Shown here in pieces: positions 510 to 47,801 of a stretch of 64,000 nucleotides of DNA (position 1 is the first letter of the stretch; every line of letters starts with the position of its first letter). The notes beneath the pieces are model-generated. The model saw only the letters and a program-made list of their open reading frames with translations. It was not told the origin of the DNA and did not search any database. Source of the stretch: Billgrantia desiderata (GTDB lineage: Bacteria; Pseudomonadota; Gammaproteobacteria; Pseudomonadales; Halomonadaceae); the NCBI GenBank assembly GCA_011742915.1, contig JAAQTN010000017.1, positions 32,044 to 96,043 of the forward strand, read 5' to 3'. A program made the translations under genes and the position numbers.

Positions 510-2648
510 ATGAGCTACCAGGTTCTGGCCCGCAAATGGCGCCCGCGTACGTTCCATGAACTGGTCGGCCAGGAGCACGTCCAGCGTGCACTGGTCAATG
601 CCCTGGATCAGGGGCGTTTGCATCATGCCTACCTGTTCACCGGGACACGCGGTGTCGGCAAGACAACGCTGGCAAGAATACTTGCCAAATGTCTCAACTG
701 TACGGCCAAAGGGTATGGCGACGAAGGCATTACCTCCACCCCGTGCGGTCAGTGCGACAGCTGCCGTGCCATCGACGAAGGCCGCTTCGTCGATCTGATC
801 GAAGTGGACGCCGCTTCGCGCACCAAGGTGGAGGATACCCGCGAGCTGCTCGACAACGTGCAGTACGCCCCCACGCAGGGCCGCTACAAGGTGTATCTCA
901 TCGACGAGGTGCACATGCTCTCCACCAGCAGTTTCAATGCGCTGCTCAAGACGCTGGAAGAGCCGCCGCCCCACGTCAAGTTCCTGCTTGCCACCACCGA
1001 TCCGCAGAAGCTGCCGGCCACGGTACTGTCGCGCTGTCTGCAGTTCACCCTCAAGAACATGCCGCCGGAGCGTATCGTCACCCATCTGGCCAAGGTGCTC
1101 GAGGCCGAGGGCATCGGCTTCGAGGAGAGCGCGCTGTGGCTGCTGGGACGGGCCGCCGACGGCTCCATGCGCGATGCCATGAGCCTGACCGATCAGGCCA
1201 TTGCCTTCGGTCAAGGCCAGGTGCGCCATGCCGACGTGGCCGCCATGCTGGGGACGCTCGACCACCGCCACGTGCTGGCGCTGGTCGAGGCGCTGGCGGA
1301 TGTCGATGCGCCGCGGCTGCTGGCCGAGATCGCCCAGTTGGCGGAGCAGGGGCCGGATTTCGCCGCCGTGCTCGACGACCTGAGTGCGGTGCTGCACCGC
1401 CTGGCGGTAGCTCAGATGGTGCCCGCCGCCGTGGACAACGGCCATGGCGACCGCGACACGGTGCTGGCTCTGGCCGCGCGCTTCACCGCCGAGGACGTGC
1501 AGCTCTACTACCAGATCGGCATTCAGGGGCGCGGCGACATGGCTCACGCCCCCGATCTGCGCACGGCGCTGGAGATGACGCTGCTGCGCATGCTGGCATT
1601 CCGCCCCCAGGGCGTGCCGCAGCCGGCCAAGACCCCGCTGCCGCTGCGCGGTGCCGACAGCGGCGGTTCGTCCGCCGCGCCTGCGAGTGGCGCCGACGAG
1701 CCTGCCTCACCGGAGGGCGAGTCGGCTGGCGCGACCCCGCGCCATCCCGAACCGGAGTCGGCATCCGAGCCGGCCCCGGCGATAAGTGCACCGTCGCCTG
1801 CTGCCGAGGCCGTGCGCCCGCCGGAGCCGCCCCCGCCCTGGGAGGAAGCGGCGCCGGAGCCGTCGCTTGATTCCGCCGCCCAGGCGACGGCCGAACCCGA
1901 GTTCACCGCGGAAGCGACCGTCGCGCCAAGGCCTGAACATGAGCCTGAGCCAGAACCGCTGCCCGAGTCCCGGTTTTCGTCGGAACCTGAGCCTGGGCCT
2001 GAACCGGAGCCTGTTCCGGAACCGGAGTTTGCTCACGCGCCCGCGCCTGAACCTGCCTTTGAGCCGCGCGCTGTCACCGTCTTGCCGCAGGAGTACGCGG
2101 GCAGGGCAGCAGCACAGACAGAAGCAACACAGACAGAAGAGAGCGACCTGGCCGTGCTCGACGAGCCCGAGCCGGCCGTCGGCGCCGCGTCCGCCGATGC
2201 CCCCGAGCGGCGCCCTGCGGTAGAGCAGGCGGCAGACGGCGAACTGCTCAGCCATGATCGCTGGTTGCTAGGCTTCGACGCCCTGGGGCTCGGCGGGTTG
2301 ACCCGCAACCTGGCGGCCCACTGTGTGGTCGAAGCCGATGACGGCAGGCGCTTGACGCTGCGCCTCGATCCGTCCCAGGAGGCCATGAACGCAGAGATCC
2401 ACGAACGTCGCGTGCAGGAGGCGCTGGCCGGCATCGGCATCGTACGCCAGCTCGCGATCGTGCCGGGGCCCTTGCCGACCGACATCGAGACGCCGCGCCA
2501 GCGTGCCGACCGGATTGCCGCCGAGCGCCACGCCGAGGCGGTGGCCGCCCTGCATCGCGACCCTCACGTCAGACAGCTGCAGGAAACCTTCGGTGCGCGC
2601 CTGATCGAGTCGAGCGTCAAGCCGGCCGAAGCGGCATCCAGGGCCTGA
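510..2648 (+). CDS. dnaX: DNA polymerase III subunit tau (clamp loader ATPase)
   Basis: 712 residues starting [12 protein letters not shown], the family N-terminus; AAGGAA lies about 10 bases before the ATG at 510. AAA+ module: Walker A GTRGVGKT (45-52), zinc-binding cysteines C64, C79, C82, C85, Walker B with DEVH (132-135), sensor ATTD (161-164), and the SRC arginine-finger motif (174-176). After about residue 370 comes a long Pro/Glu/Ala-rich linker with repeated PEPEP units, then the C-terminal tau domain that contacts the polymerase alpha subunit. It loads the sliding clamp. It leads a dnaX-ybaB-recR cluster, an order common in bacteria. No run of four or more A was seen in the gene, so the A-AAA-AAG frameshift site that makes gamma in E. 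coli is absent. Confidence 0.97.
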
Positions 2649-2685
2649 AAAGACAAGTTCACTTTGCCAAGCGAGAGGAACGACC

Positions 2686-3012
2686 ATGATGAAAGGTGGA
2701 ATGGGCAACCTGATGAAGCAGGCCCAGGAGATGCAGCAGAAAATGCAGCGTGTCCAGGAAGAGATCGCCAAGGCCGAGGTGACCGGTGAAGCCGGCGCCG
2801 GCATGGTCAAGGTGACCATGAACGGTCGCCACGACGTGAGCAAGGTCGATATCGATCCCAGCGTCATGGAAGAGGACAAGGAGCTGCTCGAGGACCTGCT
2901 GGCCGCGGCGGTCAACGACGCGGTGCGCAAGGTCGAGGCCAGCTCGCGGGCCAAGATGGAAGAGGCCACGGCGGGGCTCAACCTGCCGCCTGGCTTCAAG
3001 ATGCCTTTCTGA
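2686..3012 (+). CDS. ybaB: YbaB/EbfC nucleoid-associated protein
   Basis: 108 residues, the usual length of the YbaB/EbfC family of small dimeric DNA-binding proteins. The N-terminal helix is Met/Gln-rich (residues 4-30), followed by the conserved [17 protein letters not shown] strand region and an acidic helical C-terminal half ending [10 protein letters not shown]. Two tandem ATGs (2686, 2689) follow GAGAGGAA at 2673-2680; the first is used here. It sits between dnaX and recR, as in many genomes, which supports a role in nucleoid organisation or recombination. The exact role of the family is not settled. Confidence 0.95.
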
Positions 3013-3071
3013 CTCGACTGAAACCGGCTGAGCTCGGCCATGCGGCGTCACTCATCCTCTAGAGGTATCGA

Positions 3072-3677
3072 ATGAGCTTCTCCCCCCTCGTCGAGAGACT
3101 GATGGAGTCGCTGCGTGTGCTGCCGGGGGTAGGCCCCAAGACCGCGCAGCGCATGGCGATGCATCTGCTCGAACGTGACCGCGATGGCGGGCGTCGTCTG
3201 GCCGGCGTGCTCGAGCAGGCCATCGAGCAGGTCGGCTACTGCCGGCGCTGTCGCACCCTCACCGAGGAGGAGGTCTGCGGCCTGTGTACCAGCAGCCGGC
3301 GCGACGACGCCCTGCTGTGCGTGGTAGAGTCGCCTGCCGACCAGCTCGCCATCGAGGAGGCGGGCGGCTACCGTGGCCGCTATTTCGTGCTCCACGGTCA
3401 CCTTTCGCCGCTGGATGGCATCGGCCCAGAGGACTTGGGTCTCGACCAGCTCGAAGCGCGTATCGCCGAGGGCGGTATCGGCGAGGTGATCCTGGCCACC
3501 AATCCCACCGTGGAGGGCGAGGCCACGGCGCACTACATCGCTGCTCAGCTGTCACCCCATGGGGTGACGCTGTCGCGCCTGGCCTATGGTGTACCCATGG
3601 GTGGGGAACTTGAGTACGTCGATGGCGGTACTCTCAGTCGTGCCTTCAACGGCCGCCTGCCGTTTCGCGGCGATTGA
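3072..3677 (+). CDS. recR: Recombination mediator protein RecR
   Basis: 201 residues, standard for RecR. A helix-hairpin-helix lies at about residues 10-30 ([11 protein letters not shown]), a four-cysteine zinc finger at C57, C60, C69, C72, then a Toprim domain at about 80-175 ([27 protein letters not shown]). With RecO and RecF it loads RecA on SSB-coated single-stranded DNA in gap repair. Co-directional with dnaX and ybaB with short gaps, probably one transcript. Confidence 0.97.
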
Positions 3678-3710
3678 AGTCGCTGCCTTTTCCTGTTGCC
3701 GGATGACCGC

Positions 3711-4841
3711 ATGACCCTGACCCCCGAGATACGCTGGATCGACACCCCCGAGGCGCTGGATGCCGCCTGCGCCGAGGTGGCCGGCGCCGAGGTGATCGCG
3801 CTGGATACCGAATTCTTTCGCGAGAAGACCTTTCACCCGATTCCCGCGCTGATCCAGTTTTCCGCCGGTGGGCCGGCCTGGCTGGTCGATCCTGTCGTGG
3901 TGGACTGCACCGCTGCCTTTCGCCGCCTGTTGGGCGAGGGGCCGCTGAAGCTGCTGCATGCCAGCAGCGAGGATCTGGAGGTGTTGGCCCACTGGGCTGA
4001 CGTGTCGGTGGCGCCGCTGGTGGATACCCAGGTGGCTCAGGCACTGCTGGGGGAAGACCCCGCCATGGGCTATCAGCGCATGGTGCATCACTGGACCGGG
4101 GAGACGCTGCCCAAGGACGAGACCCGCTCCGACTGGCTGCAGCGTCCACTGAGCGAATCCCAGCGGCTCTATGCGGCGCTCGACGTGGTCTACCTGCTCA
4201 AGGTCTGGGAGCGTCAGCGCGAAGCGCTGGAACGACAGCAGCGCCGTGAATGGCTCGAGGCCGACTGCCGTGAGCTGATGGCACAGGCACTGCGCAGCGA
4301 CGAGACGGATGGGCAGTGGTATCGGCGGCATCGCCAGCTCTGGCGCCTCACGCCACGTCAGGTCGAGGCCTATCGGCTGATGACCACCTGGCGCGAAGGC
4401 GAGGCCCGGCGACGCAACTTGCCGCGAGGCTGGCTGGTCAATGATCGGGTGCTGTATGCCATTGCCGAGCGCATGCCGGAGAATCGTCATCAGCTCGCCG
4501 AGGTCGAAGAGATCAAGCCGAGCCTGATCAAGCGCGACGGCGACACTCTGCTGGCGATGGTGAAGCAGGCGCGCCAGTGCGAGGCGGACACTCTGCCAGC
4601 ATCGCAGCCCTCGCCGCTGGGGGCGGACTACAAGCGGCGAATGAAGGCGCTCAAGCGGGTGGTGAACGAACATGCCGAGCGGTTGGGGTTGGCACCGGAG
4701 GTACTGATGCGCCGCCGCGAGCTGGAAGCGCTGATCGCCGCCGATCTGGCTGGGGAACCGCTGCCTTTGCCTGAGGGCTGGCGTGGCGACTGCCTCGCGG
4801 CACCCCTGGAGCAAGCGTTGGATGAGGTGAAGGCCGAATGA
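3711..4841 (+). CDS. rnd: Ribonuclease D
   Basis: 376 residues from the ATG at 3711; an in-frame TTG at 3696 would add five residues but neither start has a strong ribosome site. DEDD-type 3'-5' exonuclease motifs are visible: LDTEF with D32/E34 (Exo I), [12 protein letters not shown] (Exo II) and [10 protein letters not shown] with the Tyr/Asp pair (Exo III), followed by HRDC helices. The enzyme trims tRNA precursor 3' ends. The stop overlaps the next start in ATGA, so rnd and ycgL are translationally coupled. Confidence 0.95.
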
Positions 4842-5149
4842 AAGACGACCGCCTGCAAGGCGACAAGCTGCTGTGCGAGATCTTCAAGAGCCCGCGCAAG
4901 GATGAAATGTACCTCTACGTCGACAAGCGTCAGGGGCTGGCCGAGGTGCCTGCGGTACTGCTCGAGCGCTTCGGCAAGCCGATATCGGTCATGACCATGA
5001 TCCTGACGCCGGAAAAGCCGCTGGCCCGCGCCAAGACGGAAGACGTGATGGCGGCGATCCGCGACAAGGGGTTCTATCTGCAGATGCCCCCGGCCAAGGA
5101 GGAGTATCTGCTGGACCTGTACCGTACCCCCACCGAGTCGCGCTACTGA
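4838..5149 (+). CDS. ycgL: YcgL domain protein
   Basis: 103 residues matching the YcgL (DUF709) family: [20 protein letters not shown] near the N-terminus, then a core ending in [14 protein letters not shown]. The biochemical function is unknown. It overlaps rnd by four bases, and ycgN starts directly after it. rnd-ycgL-ycgN is a recurrent gammaproteobacterial arrangement, so a link to RNA metabolism is possible but unproven. Confidence 0.92.
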
Positions 5150-5150
5150 C

Positions 5151-5600
5151 ATGCGCGAATTGTTCTGGGAGCGCTTCGACCTCGAGGAGCTCACCGCCGA
5201 GGAGTGGGAAGCGCTGTGCGACGGCTGTGGCCAGTGCTGTCTCATCAAGTTCCAGGACGAGGACAGCGGCGACCTCGCCGTGCTTGGCGTGGCCTGCGAG
5301 CTGCTCGACATCCACAGCTGTCGCTGTAGCGACTATCCCAACCGTCAGGCCCGGGTACCCGACTGTGCCCGACTCACGCCGCAGCGCGTCGACGAGTTCC
5401 GCTGGCTGCCGAAGTCCTGCGCCTACCGTCGTATCGCCGAAGGCCGCCGGCTGGCGGGGTGGCATCCGCTGATTTCCGGCGACCCCGAGCGCGTTCATCG
5501 CAAAGGCATCAGCGTACGCAGCTTTGCCATCTCCCAGCGTGATGTGGCCGAGGACGAACTGGAAGACCACATCATCGCCATACTGCCGATTGACGGCTGA
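5151..5600 (+). CDS. ycgN: YcgN/YkgJ family cysteine-cluster protein
   Basis: 149 residues of the UPF0260 family. The N-terminal cysteine cluster CDGCGQCC (about residues 23-30) is followed by further cysteines at CRCSDYPNRQ and VPDC, spaced as expected for a metal or iron-sulfur site. The function is unknown. The ATG is one base after the ycgL stop, so it is read as the third gene of the rnd operon. Confidence 0.92.
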   Translation: MRELFWERFDLEELTAEEWEALCDGCGQCCLIKFQDEDSGDLAVLGVACELLDIHSCRCSDYPNRQARVPDCARLTPQRVDEFRWLPKSCAYRRIAEGRRLAGWHPLISGDPERVHRKGISVRSFAISQRDVAEDELEDHIIAILPIDG

Positions 5601-5620
5601 GTGACATAGGGAAGAGGAGG

Positions 5621-5636
5621 CCCGGCCGACGCCGGG
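5621..5636. terminator. Short hairpin between convergent ycgN and ptrB
   Basis: CCCGGC-CGAC-GCCGGG forms a perfect six-base-pair stem exactly in the short gap between the two converging genes. There is no T-run on either side, so termination is only suggested by position. Confidence 0.3.
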
Positions 5637-7775
5637 TCATTGCTTCAAGTTCGTTGCTTTTCTCTCAGCCAGCCCTAGAGCCCAGAGAATGAAGGCGTCC
5701 TGGCGGGCATTGTCGTGCCAGGCCTTGAAGCGACCCGAAGCGCCGCCGTGTCCGGCGGCCATGTCGGTACGCAGCAGCACCGGGCCGCGCGCGGTGCCCA
5801 TTTCCCGCAGCCGGGCATAGAGCTTGGCGGGCTCCCAGTAAGGCACCCGGGTGTCGTGCCAACTGCCCTGAAGAAACAGGGTGGGGTAGGGCTGAGGCGT
5901 CAGGTTGTCGAGCGGCGAATAGGCGCGAATGCGCTTGCGCGCATCCGGCTCGTCGGGGTTGCCCCATTCGGTGTATTCGGCTGTGGTCAGCGGCAGGTCG
6001 GGGTTCTCCATCGTGCGCAGTACGTCGACGAAGGGAACATCCAGCACGGCAGCACAGAAGGCCTCCGGTGCCAGATTGAGGCTGGCGCCCACCAGCAGGC
6101 CGCCGGCGCTGGCGCCATAGGCGGCAATGCGTTCGGCGTCGCTGAAGCCTTTTTCCACCAGCGCGTGGCGCGCCGCCAGAAAGTCGCGAAAACTGTTTTC
6201 CTTGTGTTCGAGCTTGCCGGCCAGGTACCAGGGTTCGCCTCGGTCGCCGCCGCCGCGCACATGCGCCACGGCAAAGGCAACGCCGCGCGCCAGCAGCTCG
6301 AGCCTGGCCACCGAGAACCAAGGGTCTAGCACTTCGCCATAGGCGCCATAGCCGTACAGCAGGGTGGGCAGTGGGCGTCCGGCGAGGTCGGCGCGCATTA
6401 CCACCGAGACCGGAATTCGTTCGCCATCGTGGGCGCGTGCCCAGATGCGCTCGGAGCACAGGTCCTCTGGCTGCAGGTCGCCGTGAATCGGCTGTGTCTT
6501 GAGTATCTGGCGCTGGCCACTGTCGAGATCGTGCTCGAGCCAGCGCACCGGCATGACGAAGGACTCTTCTCGCAGGCGCAGGCGGCGACTGTCGAAGTGT
6601 GGCATGTCGCCGAGCATCAGACTGCAGGGTGATTCCGGCAGCGGCAAGCGCTCGTCTCGGCGTACGGCATGGCTGCCATCGAGTTCGACGATGCGAACCC
6701 TGACCTGGGCCTCGTGATGGTCGCGCTCGGTAATGGCCAGGCCCCAGTCGAAGGCTTCGACATCCTCCAGGGTGGTGTCGTCGCGGTGTTCGAGCAGGGG
6801 GCGCCATGGCGCCTGCGGGTCATGTTCGTCCGCGACCTCGAGGCAGAAGTGAGGGGCGTTGCGGTTGTGCAACACGTAGAAATACCCGGGGCGGTGCTCC
6901 AGTCCGTACTCCACGCCCTTCTCTCGGGGGCGGAAGCAGCGTGGTGCCTGGTCGGGTGCCCGGGCAGGCAGCAGGTAGCACTCGCTGGTGTCCTTGGAGG
7001 CGCTCTCCAGCACCAGCCATTGCCGTGAGCGCGTCTTGCCGAGCCCCAGCCAGAATTCCGGATCGTCTTCACGCAGGATCAGCGCCGGCTCCCCGGCCTG
7101 GCTCTGATTCAGTGGCAGACGCCAGATGCTGTCCGGTCGCTGGGTGGCATCGTAGCGAGTGAAGAGCAGCGTGGCGTTGTCCTCGGCCCAGGTCAGTTCA
7201 GGGCCGATTTCCTCCAGCAGCAGTAGTGGCTCGCCGTCGGGCAGGGCCTTGAGATAGAGCGTGAAGCGCTCATCGCCGCTGGTATCCTCGGTCCAGGCCA
7301 GCCAGCGCTCGTCCGGCGAGAGGGCCATGTCGCCCAATTCCAGATAGTGCTCCGCCTCGGCGCGCCGTTGCAGGTCCAGAAAGGGCGTGGCATCGCTCAC
7401 GTTGCCGTTCAGATGACGCCACCAGACCGGATAGTCGGCATCGCTCGCCGTCTCGCTCCAGTAGGTGAAGTGGTCCAGCGCGGTGGGCAGTCCCTTGACG
7501 CCCAGCTCGCGGCGAGAAAGATGGCTGTGATAAAGACGTTCGACGAGGTCGTCGAGCGGCTTCATCCATGATTTCGATTCGTCATTCGCCGCTTCCAGAA
7601 AGGCGCTGACCTGGGGGTCGTCTCGGTCTTCCAGCCAATGCCATTCGGGGTCGTCGGCGCGGCGAAAGCGTTCGACCGGCGACGGCGATGAAAAATCGGC
7701 GGTGGGGATAGAGGAACTTTGTGGCGGCTGTGCTTTCATTGGGGCGGGTGTACCATACTCAAAATGACTTTCCAT
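5637..7775 (-). CDS. ptrB: Oligopeptidase B (prolyl oligopeptidase family, S9A)
   Basis: 712 residues from the ATG at 7773-7775, which has GGAG eight bases upstream; a TTG at 7811 gives a longer form with no better support. An N-terminal beta-propeller region (WHWLEDRDDPQV near the start) is followed by a C-terminal alpha/beta-hydrolase domain. The Ser nucleophile is in AYGASAGGLL and the catalytic His is in AAGHGGASGR (about residue 676). Oligopeptidase B cleaves short peptides after Lys/Arg in the cytoplasm; no signal peptide is visible. Divergent from the small membrane protein at 7825. Confidence 0.93.
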   Translation of the reverse strand: MESHFEYGTPAPMKAQPPQSSSIPTADFSSPSPVERFRRADDPEWHWLEDRDDPQVSAFLEAANDESKSWMKPLDDLVERLYHSHLSRRELGVKGLPTALDHFTYWSETASDADYPVWWRHLNGNVSDATPFLDLQRRAEAEHYLELGDMALSPDERWLAWTEDTSGDERFTLYLKALPDGEPLLLLEEIGPELTWAEDNATLLFTRYDATQRPDSIWRLPLNQSQAGEPALILREDDPEFWLGLGKTRSRQWLVLESASKDTSECYLLPARAPDQAPRCFRPREKGVEYGLEHRPGYFYVLHNRNAPHFCLEVADEHDPQAPWRPLLEHRDDTTLEDVEAFDWGLAITERDHHEAQVRVRIVELDGSHAVRRDERLPLPESPCSLMLGDMPHFDSRRLRLREESFVMPVRWLEHDLDSGQRQILKTQPIHGDLQPEDLCSERIWARAHDGERIPVSVVMRADLAGRPLPTLLYGYGAYGEVLDPWFSVARLELLARGVAFAVAHVRGGGDRGEPWYLAGKLEHKENSFRDFLAARHALVEKGFSDAERIAAYGASAGGLLVGASLNLAPEAFCAAVLDVPFVDVLRTMENPDLPLTTAEYTEWGNPDEPDARKRIRAYSPLDNLTPQPYPTLFLQGSWHDTRVPYWEPAKLYARLREMGTARGPVLLRTDMAAGHGGASGRFKAWHDNARQDAFILWALGLAERKATNLKQ

Positions 7776-21861: not shown

Positions 21862-23535
21862 TCACTTTAACAAGGCGGCGCTGCTTTCTGTACCCCGCAG
21901 GTGGGGTGGAGCATTGATGACGCGAGGCTGCCAGACATCGGCATGAAGGACAGGCTCGGACTCTGGAAGACTTTCCTGGGCTGCAGTGATGCGGAAGCGG
22001 CCGGCGTGGGCCTGCATGTGCTCGGCCTTCTCGCGCAGTGTGTGGGCACTTTGGGTAGAGAGAATCACCAACTGCTGGTTGTCCTGGGTGACCCTGGTCA
22101 TGTCGTCCATGGCCTGGTTGAGCTGCGCGATGCCGTCATGCTGCTGATGTGACGCGCGTTCGATGTCCTCCATCAGTCGGTTGACTTCGTCGATTGCCTG
22201 CACGATCTCCGTCATGCCCTGATTGGCGTGGCTCGAGAGTTCGTTACCACGCCGAGTGCTGTTGCGGGAGGCGCCGAGAAGGTCGCGAATGCGGTGGGCG
22301 GCCTCGGCACTGCGAGAGGCCAGCGAGCGCACCTCGCCGGCAACGACGCCGAAGCCACGGCCCTGGTCGCCGGCCCGGGCGGCCTCCACCGATGCATTGA
22401 GCGCCAGGATGTTGGTCTGGAAAGCGATCGAGTCGATCAGGTCTACGATTGAGTTGACCTGGGTCGCGTGCTCGTGGATCTCTTCCATCGTCCTGATGAA
22501 GCGCTGCATCACGACTTCTCCCTGCTGCGCCTTGTCGAGAGCCGTATTGGTCAGTGTTCTGACCTGGTTGGCGCTTTCGGCATTGTCCGCCACGTTGTCG
22601 GTCAGCTCACGCAGGTGCGAGGCGGTCTTTTCGAGGGCTGCGCCCTGCTGGCGAGTGCGTACGGCAAGCGACTGGTTGCTCTGCGCCAATCGCTCGGCGC
22701 TGTCGAAGACGTGATGGCTGGTGTCGTGCAGATGGCTAACCGTCTCTACCAGCGATTGCTGCATGCCCGAAAGTTCGTGGAAGAGCTGTCTGATCTCCTT
22801 GAAGCCGCTGGCCACGACAGGCTCGGTCAGGTTGCCCTTGGCGATGGTGCGGAAATGGACTACGACGTTCTGCAGCGGGGTAAGAACGCAGCGCTGACCC
22901 AGCCAGGCCATGAGAACCAGGACGACGAGGGTCAGAGCGAGACCGGAGGTCAGCAGCCAGGTGAACAGCTGGGCCTGACCTTCCGCATGGTGCAGCAGCG
23001 CCACACCCTGTTGGTCGGCCAAGGCATAGAAGTGCCGCGCGCTCTCGGTCAGGGCTTGGCTGTTATCCACGGCTTCCAGGGTCAACTGCCGGTAGGCGCT
23101 GCGATCGCCTGCTCGTATGGCCATGAGCTGTTGCTGCATCGTTTCGATCAGCCTCGTGGCGTCAGCGTCGAGGGTATCGCGCAAGGCGCCATGCGGCGTA
23201 GAGCGTGTAGCTTCGAGGAAGGAAGTAAGGCTAGTCGTCATTTCTTCGAGTTCGGCTTCTATCGCTTGCAGAGCCGCCAACGGGTCACCCAAGGAGGGGC
23301 GCAGCTGTCGCTCCAGGGCGCGGTCCATGCGATTGAGCCCCTCGAGGCTGGCGATATGCATGCGGTTGAGCGTCGAAGCCTGCTCTACGTTGATCCGTTC
23401 GAGCGCGGCAAGGTCGAGCCGGCTCTGCTGCATCACTTTCCAGGTCAGCGAAGCGAAAGCCAGCAGCAGCAGGGTTACCAGACTCAGCATGGCAAGGCTG
23501 GTTCGACGGATGGAGAGGTTCTGAAGGCGCGTCAC
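21862..23535 (-). CDS. Methyl-accepting chemotaxis protein
   Basis: 557 residues from a GTG at 23535 with GGGAG upstream. Transmembrane helices lie at about 13-33 and 188-212, with a helical periplasmic sensor between them. A HAMP region follows (about 212-265) and a long cytoplasmic coiled coil. The signalling tip FQTNILALNASVEAARAG, followed by GRGFGVVAGEVRSLA, is diagnostic. There is no C-terminal NWETF-type CheR-docking pentapeptide. The ligand is unknown. It is probably read through into tal, an unusual neighbour. Confidence 0.94.
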   Translation of the reverse strand: MTRLQNLSIRRTSLAMLSLVTLLLLAFASLTWKVMQQSRLDLAALERINVEQASTLNRMHIASLEGLNRMDRALERQLRPSLGDPLAALQAIEAELEEMTTSLTSFLEATRSTPHGALRDTLDADATRLIETMQQQLMAIRAGDRSAYRQLTLEAVDNSQALTESARHFYALADQQGVALLHHAEGQAQLFTWLLTSGLALTLVVLVLMAWLGQRCVLTPLQNVVVHFRTIAKGNLTEPVVASGFKEIRQLFHELSGMQQSLVETVSHLHDTSHHVFDSAERLAQSNQSLAVRTRQQGAALEKTASHLRELTDNVADNAESANQVRTLTNTALDKAQQGEVVMQRFIRTMEEIHEHATQVNSIVDLIDSIAFQTNILALNASVEAARAGDQGRGFGVVAGEVRSLASRSAEAAHRIRDLLGASRNSTRRGNELSSHANQGMTEIVQAIDEVNRLMEDIERASHQQHDGIAQLNQAMDDMTRVTQDNQQLVILSTQSAHTLREKAEHMQAHAGRFRITAAQESLPESEPVLHADVWQPRVINAPPHLRGTESSAALLK

Positions 23536-43302: not shown

Positions 43303-43611
43303 TCAGGCCCGTGACATTGCGGGATAGCTCAGAGCGGTACGCAGCCGCTCGGCGTGCTCCCTCACCCAGGCGGGGTCGATAGGGCCCCAATCGACGATGG
43401 CGTAGCTCCCGCTATTGTGACGTTCTCCCGGCGTCGGCCGGAATTCGCAGCGTATCTCCAGCTCCTCCAAGGCCTTGAGGGTGTCCTGGGCAGTGCGGCG
43501 CGGCATGCCGGTGGCGTTGACGATGGCCGGTACGCTGCTGATCCCGCACTCGATCAGGTGGGCCAGGTACAGGCGGCGATAGAAGCTGGACTGGGTCTTG
43601 CTGAGGGTCAT
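43303..43611 (-). CDS. Winged-helix DNA-binding protein, unknown target
   Basis: 102 residues from the ATG at 43609-43611 (AGGT upstream); a TTG at 43644 is a weaker alternative. Residues 5-60 form a winged helix-turn-helix (FYRRLYLAHLIE; VPAIVNATGMPRRTAQDTLKAL), and the rest is a short C-terminal part with DWGPIDPAWVREH. I recognise it as a small conserved gammaproteobacterial HTH protein without a named function. It may control the lipoprotein hydrolase behind it. Confidence 0.78.
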   Translation of the reverse strand: MTLSKTQSSFYRRLYLAHLIECGISSVPAIVNATGMPRRTAQDTLKALEELEIRCEFRPTPGERHNSGSYAIVDWGPIDPAWVREHAERLRTALSYPAMSRA

Positions 43612-43789
43612 GGTTACCTGCGGATGAAGAGGTGGGTCTGGCAACAGTTACTCGTCCCTAGCATAGCGCCGGGGCACGAGATTCCACCAGCCGGCTGCGG
43701 GATGTCATCCTCGACGCCATCTCCTACATTGAAAGGCACGAAATGCTCTCGCCGCAGCTTGGAGCGGCATATCGACAGGGAGGATCGTC

Positions 43790-44050
43790 ATGACAGTCAA
43801 ACAGGTAAGCGAGGCGGAGCTGCTGGCCCAGGTGGGGCGTTGCATGTTCGGCGAGCGCGTGGTGATCGAGCGCGAGGGAAAACGCTTTTCCGCGCGCATT
43901 CAGCATGTGGGCGCCACCGGGGTCAAGGTGGTGCCGGAAACGACGCTGCTGGAGCACGACGGTGCGCCCGGCGACATCAACGGCGTCACCGTCGCCTATG
44001 CCGATATCCAGGAGGTCGAGGTCGACGGTATCACCTATCGGTTGGCCTGA
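43790..44050 (+). CDS. Small protein of unknown function
   Basis: 86 residues starting MTVKQVSEAELLAQVG, with GGGAGG at a good distance before the ATG. I do not recognise a family. The predicted pattern is one N-terminal helix, then short strands (RVVIEREGKRFSARIQHVGATGVKVVP; ITYRLA), giving a small SH3- or OB-like beta fold. No signal peptide or Cys pair is visible. It stands alone between the hydrolase operon (divergent) and dciA (convergent). Confidence 0.7.
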   Translation: MTVKQVSEAELLAQVGRCMFGERVVIEREGKRFSARIQHVGATGVKVVPETTLLEHDGAPGDINGVTVAYADIQEVEVDGITYRLA

Positions 44051-44074
44051 AGGGCGTGGTCTGACGGGTTGTCG

Positions 44075-44545
44075 CTACGACGATTCGTCACCGCGCTGGG
44101 CATGTGAGGCGAGGCGCTCAAGGGCCCGTTTGAGACGCGGGTCGTCGACATCGGCGGCGCAGGCGGAGATCTCGTCGGCCGCCGGGGCGGGCAGTTGCCT
44201 GATCTGGCGCGGTGGCACCTTGAGCGGCCGTACGGGACGTACCTTGAGGCTGAAGCCCGTGACGGCGGCGAATTCCGGCAAGCGGTGCAGCAGCTCGAGC
44301 AGGCGCGCCTGTTCGTAGCGCAGCCAGGTCAGCCACACGGCGCGGTCGGTCAGCAGCGTGAGCTTGCCATCGCGATAACCGCCGACGAAGACGTGCTCGC
44401 GCACCTCTTCCGGCAGCTGCTCGCGCAGGTGCTGCTGTGCCTTGCCGATCAGGCGTGCCGTGCGCATCAGCGGTGCCAGCTCGCCGTTACCACCGAGCAG
44501 GCGCGACATGGGCTGTGCTCGTGAGCGCTTAACCTTTATACTCAT
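44075..44545 (-). CDS. dciA: DciA-type helicase-loading protein (DUF721)
   Basis: 156 residues from the ATG at 44543-44545; an in-frame ATG at 44560 would add five residues. The DUF721 core covers about 10-105 (LLGGNGELAPLMRTARL; LREQLPEEVREHVFVGGYRDGKLTLLTDRAVWLTWLRY). DciA loads the replicative helicase DnaB in bacteria without DnaC. Its place directly divergent from the secA region is the standard gammaproteobacterial order. Confidence 0.88.
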   Translation of the reverse strand: MSIKVKRSRAQPMSRLLGGNGELAPLMRTARLIGKAQQHLREQLPEEVREHVFVGGYRDGKLTLLTDRAVWLTWLRYEQARLLELLHRLPEFAAVTGFSLKVRPVRPLKVPPRQIRQLPAPAADEISACAADVDDPRLKRALERLASHAQRGDESS

Positions 44546-44605
44546 GTGCTTGTTTCTCATCTTCCCAACACGGCAAGCCTAGCACGCTCGGAGATCAGCG
44601 ACAGC

Positions 44606-45001
44606 ATGACCGCCGCCCAGCCACAGGATCGTAGCGTCGCCAGCCTATCGGCTACGACGACACGCTGTCGACAGCGTTCGCGCTGGTGGCTCGCCGGGCT
44701 GTTGGTCAGCTGTCTGTTGCCGGCCGGCCTGACCCAGGCGGAAACCCTGCGTCTGGCCGAGCGTGTCGTACAGACCTGCATTCTCGCGCCGACGCTGATG
44801 CGCGCCCGCTGCCGCTACGTGGCGCGCCGGCGTGCGCTGCCGCACTGGCCGCGGCGCCGGCCGGTGGCGCAGGTCAGGACGTCCTGCGTGCCACCGAGAA
44901 TGCTGCCGCAGCGCCGCTGGGCGGCCGCCCATGACGTGCTCACGCGGCGTGGCCCACCTCTTGCGTATCGCCTTCACCAAGCCATCTCCTCCTGCCGCTG
45001 A
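44606..45001 (+). CDS. SecM-positioned secreted basic peptide (possible arrest peptide)
   Basis: 131 residues from the ATG at 44606; GGAG is 12 bases upstream, a long spacing. A clear Sec signal lies at about 22-45 ([24 protein letters not shown]), cut near TQA-ET. The mature part is short and very basic, with five Cys. Near the end comes W105 and, after nine residues, R114-R-G-P117, 14 residues from the stop. E. coli SecM has W155 followed by R163-A-G-P166 in its arrest motif, also directly before secA. The match is partial (spacing is one residue longer and F150/I156 are missing), and the reading frame is not confirmed by homology. Confidence 0.55.
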
Positions 45002-45062
45002 CCGCAGCCCTCGATGGGCGCCCGGGTCATCGGCTGAACGCGACACGCAGATTGGACGTTCC

Positions 45063-47801
<2,739 letters not shown>

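Follow-up and report, generated by a model that had tools for sequence, protein, structure and literature searches.

The window analyzed here, a 64,000-nucleotide stretch of Billgrantia desiderata DNA, carries a small open frame between the divergent gene dciA and secA (Table 1). The frame opens with an ATG at 44606 and closes with a stop codon at 44999-45001, leaving 61 bases to the secA ATG at 45063. The original prediction, made from the sequence alone, had described a 131-residue frame in this place, and both the frame and the identity of its upstream neighbor are as described. The span assigned to it, 44606-45061, is correct at its start but runs past the stop codon almost to secA. A GAG or GGAG lies in a similar place before the gene in five of the seven relatives inspected, with L041 and L042 being different. 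Neither a sigma-70 promoter nor a terminator pattern was found in 44300-45150.

Table 1. Features at the dciA-secA junction, in window coordinates.
Feature	Coordinates	Strand	Basis
dciA, divergent neighbor (context only)	44075-44560	-	PF05258, E 3e-10
GGAGA, probable ribosome-binding site of the arrest-peptide candidate	44590-44594	+	Sequence
Candidate arrest-peptide gene preceding secA (131 aa and a stop codon)	44606-45001	+	Open frame, homologs, purifying selection on parts
Predicted signal peptide, residues 25-45	44678-44740	+	L33, C36, L37 and P39 identical in 98/98 aligned homologs
Conserved basic middle segment, residues 46-81	44741-44848	+	P62 in 90, R66 in 92 and A67 in 85 of 98
Putative arrest core, residues 107-118	44924-44959	+	Conservation, pN/pS
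R115-G116-P117-P118; the predicted stall would place the P117 codon (44954-44956) in the P site and that of P118 (44957-44959) in the A site	44948-44959	+	Conservation; register from toeprints of other RQH members (PMC10987492, available text)
Predicted long-range stem, 5' strand; the leading edge of a P117-stalled ribosome would cover part of it	44962-44976	+	RNAduplex -22.0 kcal/mol; MFE, centroid
Predicted stem, 3' strand; its end directly precedes the secA ribosome-binding site	45035-45049	+	RNAduplex; MFE, centroid
GGA, probable core of the secA ribosome-binding site	45054-45056	+	Invariant in 28/28 rows of two nucleotide alignments
secA, 912 aa, presumed regulated gene	45063-47801	+	PF07517, E 1.1e-132; TIGR00963 above cut-off

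Searches of Pfam and NCBIfam returned no match to the frame at E up to 1, and Rfam returned none at E up to 1 within 43500-46000. Homologs of the peptide itself are found at E <= 0.001 in every one of the 90 genus-sample genomes and in 184 of the 201 family-sample genomes, spanning 19 of 24 genera, where genomic place was checked for the fetched loci only. The original prediction had considered the frame not to be backed by homology, which is incorrect, and the conserved frame and signal segment that it proposed to look for in related genomes were recovered across the Halomonadaceae sample. The closest named relatives of the peptide are those of B. aerodenitrificans and B. ethanolica (92% identity), and the best 80 of 161 confirmed relatives all belong to Billgrantia, Halomonas (cultured or metagenomic), Vreelandella, Chromohalobacter, Onishia, Litchfieldella or Aidingimonas. 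The 131-residue frame before secA is a real gene.

A total of 110 loci were read, 80 fetched by whole-frame homology and 30 through secA, where the latter comprise 12 from genomes without a match and 18 mostly from weak matches. Family genomes without a match number 17, of which 12 were examined, and one of these 12 (G107, locus L052) has an RGPP frame after all. The 99 loci discussed below are those with an R[GA]PP frame, such that frame and motif are fixed by choice in this set, and 11 of the 110 lack such a frame. Each of the five alternative reading frames is interrupted by a stop codon in 67 to 98 of the 99 homologous loci, the frame of the gene being open by choice of locus. The codon alignment holds 98 rows, with L033 left out, while a smaller alignment (A1) holds 63 of the 99; start codons were assigned manually for L016 and L065. 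Elsewhere in the same genome, outside the window, contig C42 carries a CRISPR-like array at about 700-6100 (716-2422 of L008) whose repeat, GTTTCTATCCGCGCGGCCCGTGCGGGCCGCGAC, recurs every 66-69 bases. The 2446 bases read contain about 26 copies, with more beyond, and four more motif sites are found on contig C62 at 22391-23142.

Conservation and selection along the peptide

Inspection of the frame ends reveals R[GA]PP in all 80 loci fetched by whole-frame homology and in 19 of the 30 fetched through secA, with the remaining 11 of 30 having no such frame. Among the 99 motif-selected loci, the motif is RGPP in 96 and RAPP in 3. It completes a conserved end that reads A107-A-x-D110-V-L-T/S-R-R115-G-P-P118, in which A107 is present in 84, D110 in 91, V111 in 88 and L112 in 83 of the 99 loci. 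The original prediction highlighted W105 ... R114-R-G-P117 at this end. Those residues are indeed present, but the conserved element is R115-G-P-P118, so the motif had been read out of register, and the tryptophan offered as a shared SecM-like feature stands at that place in only 25/99 homologs. L039 and L047 (both genus g7) and L117 have RAPP in place of RGPP and have lost the usual DVL core; alternative arrest contexts are one possible explanation for these forms.

Across the family the peptide can be aligned in its signal segment (from R26 to C36-L-L-P39), in the middle segment to about residue 81 and in the C-terminal core. The signal segment of the window peptide has a mean hydropathy of 2.14 over 14 residues, and the net charge of the peptide after residue 45 is +16, which bears out the signal-peptide-like segment and basic mature part described from the sequence. 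The four invariant residues of the signal listed in Table 1 are also identical in 63/63 rows of the smaller alignment. The hydrophobic peak precedes the first motif proline by a median of 74 residues (range 49-96, 98 loci), and the tail that follows RGPP is 1-44 residues long among homologs.

To quantify constraint, the dN/dS comparison proposed earlier was run as pN/pS, and the selection it sought on the frame is evident. For the 20-locus clade L009-L028, pN/pS is 0.063 in the signal, 0.053 in the middle segment and 0.111 in the core, while it reaches 0.70 for the spacer, 0.87 for the tail and 0.67 for the N-terminal stretch. The 40-locus genus set gives 0.18, 0.35 and 0.11 for signal, middle and core, and 0.88, 0.90 and 0.90 for spacer, tail and N-terminal stretch. 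The corresponding values for all 98 rows are 0.28, 0.65, 0.29, 0.94, 0.95 and 0.84, where pN and pS, which are uncorrected, saturate and the middle segment is no longer clearly constrained. Synonymous sites within the core vary (pS 0.54 in the 20-locus clade), and therefore it is the peptide, not the RNA, that is kept; an RNA reason for keeping RGPP is ruled out by the same variation. A targeting signal and a conserved end placed around a drifting spacer is the pattern that an arrest peptide should display. The basic middle segment, judging from its distance to the motif, should lie outside the ribosome at arrest.

Residues 25-39 (44678-44722) are strongly conserved for a signal peptide, with C36 invariant in 98/98, and the stretch L33-x-[G/S]-C36-L-L-P39 is nearly frozen across the family while the spacer has freely diverged. 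An ordinary signal-peptidase I site near residue 45, with small residues at -3 and -1, fits 70/98 homologs. A proline before a signal-peptidase I site is usual. Such a site and its preceding proline leave C36 unaccounted for; a lipobox would explain C36, yet not L37 or P39. L33-x-[G/S]35-C36 reads as a lipobox in 95/98, and the full PROSITE-like lipoprotein pattern is matched by 14/99, where we think an arginine near the segment is why most loci miss it. The signal segment could be a specialized part of the sensor, with the nascent chain a lipoprotein precursor whose arrest would report lipoprotein-type export or processing besides SecA supply. We consider this quite unlikely and hold it as a minor case only, because so few loci match the full pattern and the ordinary peptidase site fits so many. 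If true, it would constitute a form of sensing not met in the portions of the arrest-peptide literature surveyed here.

Relation to SecM and to RAPP-like arrest peptides

E. coli SecM shares with the peptide a place before secA, a signal peptide and an R-x-[G/P]-P arrest core, and the R-x-x-P end with W105 nearby would suit a true but diverged SecM that descends from the enterobacterial one and uses its motif. In contrast, the F-x4-W-I-x4-G-I pattern of SecM is missing from the Halomonadaceae peptide, and no homology is detectable: neither PF06558 (SecM) nor NCBIfam matches the frame, and hhalign of 63 homologs against the single E. coli SecM returned a probability of 0.1%. Tryptophan occurs at SecM's distance from the motif in 0/99 homologs, none of which has a G at the place of SecM G161 or an I, L or V at that of I162. 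The upstream neighbor differs as well, being divergent dciA here and lpxC in E. coli secM-secA. Membership in SecM is rejected given the lack of detectable homology, the absence of F-x4-W-I-x4-G-I-R-A-G-P and the unconserved W105, and a true but diverged SecM is highly improbable. PF06558 matched 0/274 genomes of the class sample, with E. coli among 14 controls giving a match; this negative says little about the class because the sample seems to contain no SecM carrier. Because W105 is unconserved and SecM homology is undetectable, the peptide is better read as a candidate RGPP arrest peptide. The original proposal of a SecM-like sensor is upheld to the extent that arrest to regulate secA fits the conservation and published RGPP data, but the specific likeness to SecM fails. 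The available text of one study reports an identical mechanism for RAG/P and RAP/P stalling (PMC10951233).

The available text of Fujiwara et al. 2024 (PMC10987492) describes a search of 30,175 genomes and a set of RAPP-like 'RQH' arrest peptides before secA and secDF, including a Pseudomonadales group. The type of peptide is consequently known since 2024 and is not new, contrary to what had been proposed. According to that text, RQH members stall when the third residue of the motif occupies the P site, and they require a spacer of >30 residues between signal and arrest site. One member, uA_RQH_Pseudomonadales (R109GPP, before secA), gave >0.9 arrested product in vitro in both E. coli and B. 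subtilis systems, the in vitro systems of that study being described as without EF-P. When the same work tested E. coli and B. subtilis proteins carrying RAPP-like motifs, most showed no efficient arrest, so a RAPP-like motif alone is no proof of arrest. The available text of a 2025 paper (PMC12992588) presents RGPP and RAPP as versatile arrest cores, with RGPP generally giving the most robust arrest in several contexts, and states that arrest by ApdA and ApdP is not relieved by EF-P.

We took the RQH class to comprise small unannotated same-strand frames directly before secA that have an N-terminal localization signal and a C-terminal R/Q/H-A/G/D-P/G/S-P/G motif, a spacer >30 residues, no homology to SecM, ApcA, ApdA or ApdP, and ribosome stalling while the P site holds the third residue of the motif. 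The frame described here is small, unannotated, and directly before secA on the same strand. Its N-terminal signal consists of a hydrophobic segment, with small residues at -3/-1 of residue 45 in 70/98 homologs, its C-terminal RAPP-like motif is conserved throughout the 80 homology-fetched loci, and its spacer is well above 30 residues (median 74). ApdA and ApdP (RAPP, before secDF) share the R-A/G-P-P arrest core; by their published descriptions, they precede another gene and occur in other lineages. The likeness to uA_RQH_Pseudomonadales extends to a small signal-bearing frame before secA, RGPP near the C terminus, a long spacer and the GTDB order. RQH members are grouped by motif and order, with no overall similarity reported in the available text (PMC10987492), in contrast to the signal, middle and core that are alignable across this family. 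The string 'Halomona' is absent from the main text of that source, in the part available, and a literature search of limited scope returned nothing relevant on Halomonas with SecM and none on Halomonas with arrest peptide. The motif falls exactly at residue 109 in 7/99 homologs.

Sampling of the order bears on whether the published group is the Halomonadaceae peptide. We take the Halomonadaceae to lie in Pseudomonadales in GTDB. A profile search of an order sample of 293 genomes returned 12 of the family and one match (E 4e-4) inside a 406-aa frame elsewhere, which we judge to be chance. A search for secA in 145 genomes gave 143 with a match; 105 loci outside the family were taken and secA was placed in 103 of them, including L284 and L308 with only 245-305 bases of sequence. 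No credible RAPP-like frame was found before secA at these 103 loci from other families of the order, where RAPP-like or LPPP frames at L235, L239 and L318, having no strongly hydrophobic segment, were not counted as credible. Because credible frames are absent from the other families sampled and the profile is confined to this one, uA_RQH_Pseudomonadales is probably the Halomonadaceae peptide.

Occurrence of the frame is confined to part of the family sampled. The 11 of 30 secA-fetched loci without it belong to genera g3, g5, g22 and g24. At all 11 of these frame-less family loci (L040, L046, L048, L050, L051 and L053-L058), an M23 peptidase motif occurs in the 900 bases preceding secA. The same motif rule finds the peptidase at 60/103 loci outside the family (66/103 by another rule) and at 0/99 loci with the frame. 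In a SecA tree (200 residues, 55 rows), six sampled frame-less family rows group together (82/80), apart from the frame-bearing rows; 1-3 gains or losses of the frame are needed over bootstraps, and deep forks are weak. The peptide may have a single origin, tied to loss or relocation of the peptidase gene, and the failure of arrest peptide and M23 peptidase gene to co-occur in the 900 bases before secA hints at the timing of the switch. Derivation of the frame from the peptidase N terminus was considered and rejected, the best E being 0.72 among 21 M23 frames tested.

Proposed coupling to secA and competing explanations

Conservation in the family and analogy with tested relatives make it very probable that the gene product is an arrest peptide of the RAPP-like (RQH) kind, one that monitors secretion and acts for secA. 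Such a peptide likely works in the manner of E. coli SecM, though unrelated to it by sequence. The signal peptide would target the nascent chain to the Sec machinery, and the ribosome would stall at RGPP with P117 in the P site, where stall, register and chemistry are those of published relatives. During active export, a pull on the chain would release the ribosome. When SecA is short, the stall would persist and the ribosome would cover part of 44962-44976. Once covered, this stretch could not pair with 45035-45049, the secA start would become more accessible and more SecA would be made. Regulation of secA, release by export and the part played by the stem are steps that we infer.

Folding of the mRNA, proposed earlier as a check for a helix hiding the secA start, predicts a stem in the window, but not one conserved structure. 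None of 200 shuffles is as strong as the window stem. Across the 93 loci compared, with six loci excluded that have >160 nt between stall and secA, the pairing of stall region and secA leader falls in the best 5% of shuffles in 25 (about 5 expected) and in the worst 5% in 3, and the median rank of the stall region's own secA-leader partner is in the best 19% of all partners; the loci are related, and the RNA and homolog counts are therefore not independent. At 28/93 loci, 38/40 shuffles or more exceed the ribosome-binding region in openness, with 6/93 in the other tail, and an earlier run with 25 shuffles gave 32 loci less open and 4 more open. No effect was seen on openness of the secA start codon window (7/93 low, 11/93 high). 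Neither of the window's two closest relatives shows reduced openness of the ribosome-binding region compared with shuffles (17/40 and 21/40; window 3/40). A control stretch upstream pairs equally (mean -15.75 kcal/mol for the stall region, -15.83 for the control; stall region stronger in 52/93), and the whole window stretch folds no better than shuffles (z -0.35). The stem as drawn is whole in 3/13 rows of the Billgrantia alignment. A second alignment keeps it with two mispairs or fewer in 11/15 rows and breaks it in 4/15, and visual inspection shows little covariation. The idea of one conserved stem that hides the secA start is unsupported, as structure varies across both nucleotide alignments. 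These RNA tests are weak because even the established E. coli pair secM-secA scores only marginally in them (11/200 in the duplex test, 25/40 in the test of ribosome-binding-region openness). The predicted stem is plausible in the window and unproven as a general feature.

This variability of the inhibitory stem, which is lineage-specific and not clearly conserved, is what would be expected if a stall-dependent leader acted on secA through transcription or mRNA stability, rather than by freeing the secA start. The excess of pairing between stall region and secA leader in a minority of loci, together with the SecM precedent, argues for the latter, and we regard the former as unlikely. A different explanation dispenses with arrest altogether: the product would be a secreted or periplasmic protein that performs a task of its own, and RGPP would contribute to the function of its mature form. 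Conservation of the signal peptide and middle segment does exceed the needs of a minimal arrest peptide. A protein of that kind is, however, difficult to reconcile with a spacer that drifts nearly freely (pN/pS 0.70-0.94) next to a strongly conserved 12-residue stretch near the end, or with a tail after RGPP that is hardly constrained (0.87-0.95) and variable in length. RGPP is also the most excluded tetrapeptide across many bacterial phyla, according to the available text of PMC12992588. Together these features leave an independent function without arrest very little probability.

An RGPP arrest peptide that monitors secretion for secA remains the preferred reading. Its deep set of alignable homologs, with a frozen signal, a conserved 12-residue core and a drifting spacer, offers a good natural test of which elements are important in an export sensor. 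The distribution of the peptide suggests that ribosome stalling serves to tune SecA in most of a salt-loving family, by way of a peptide that would work like SecM and has arisen separately.
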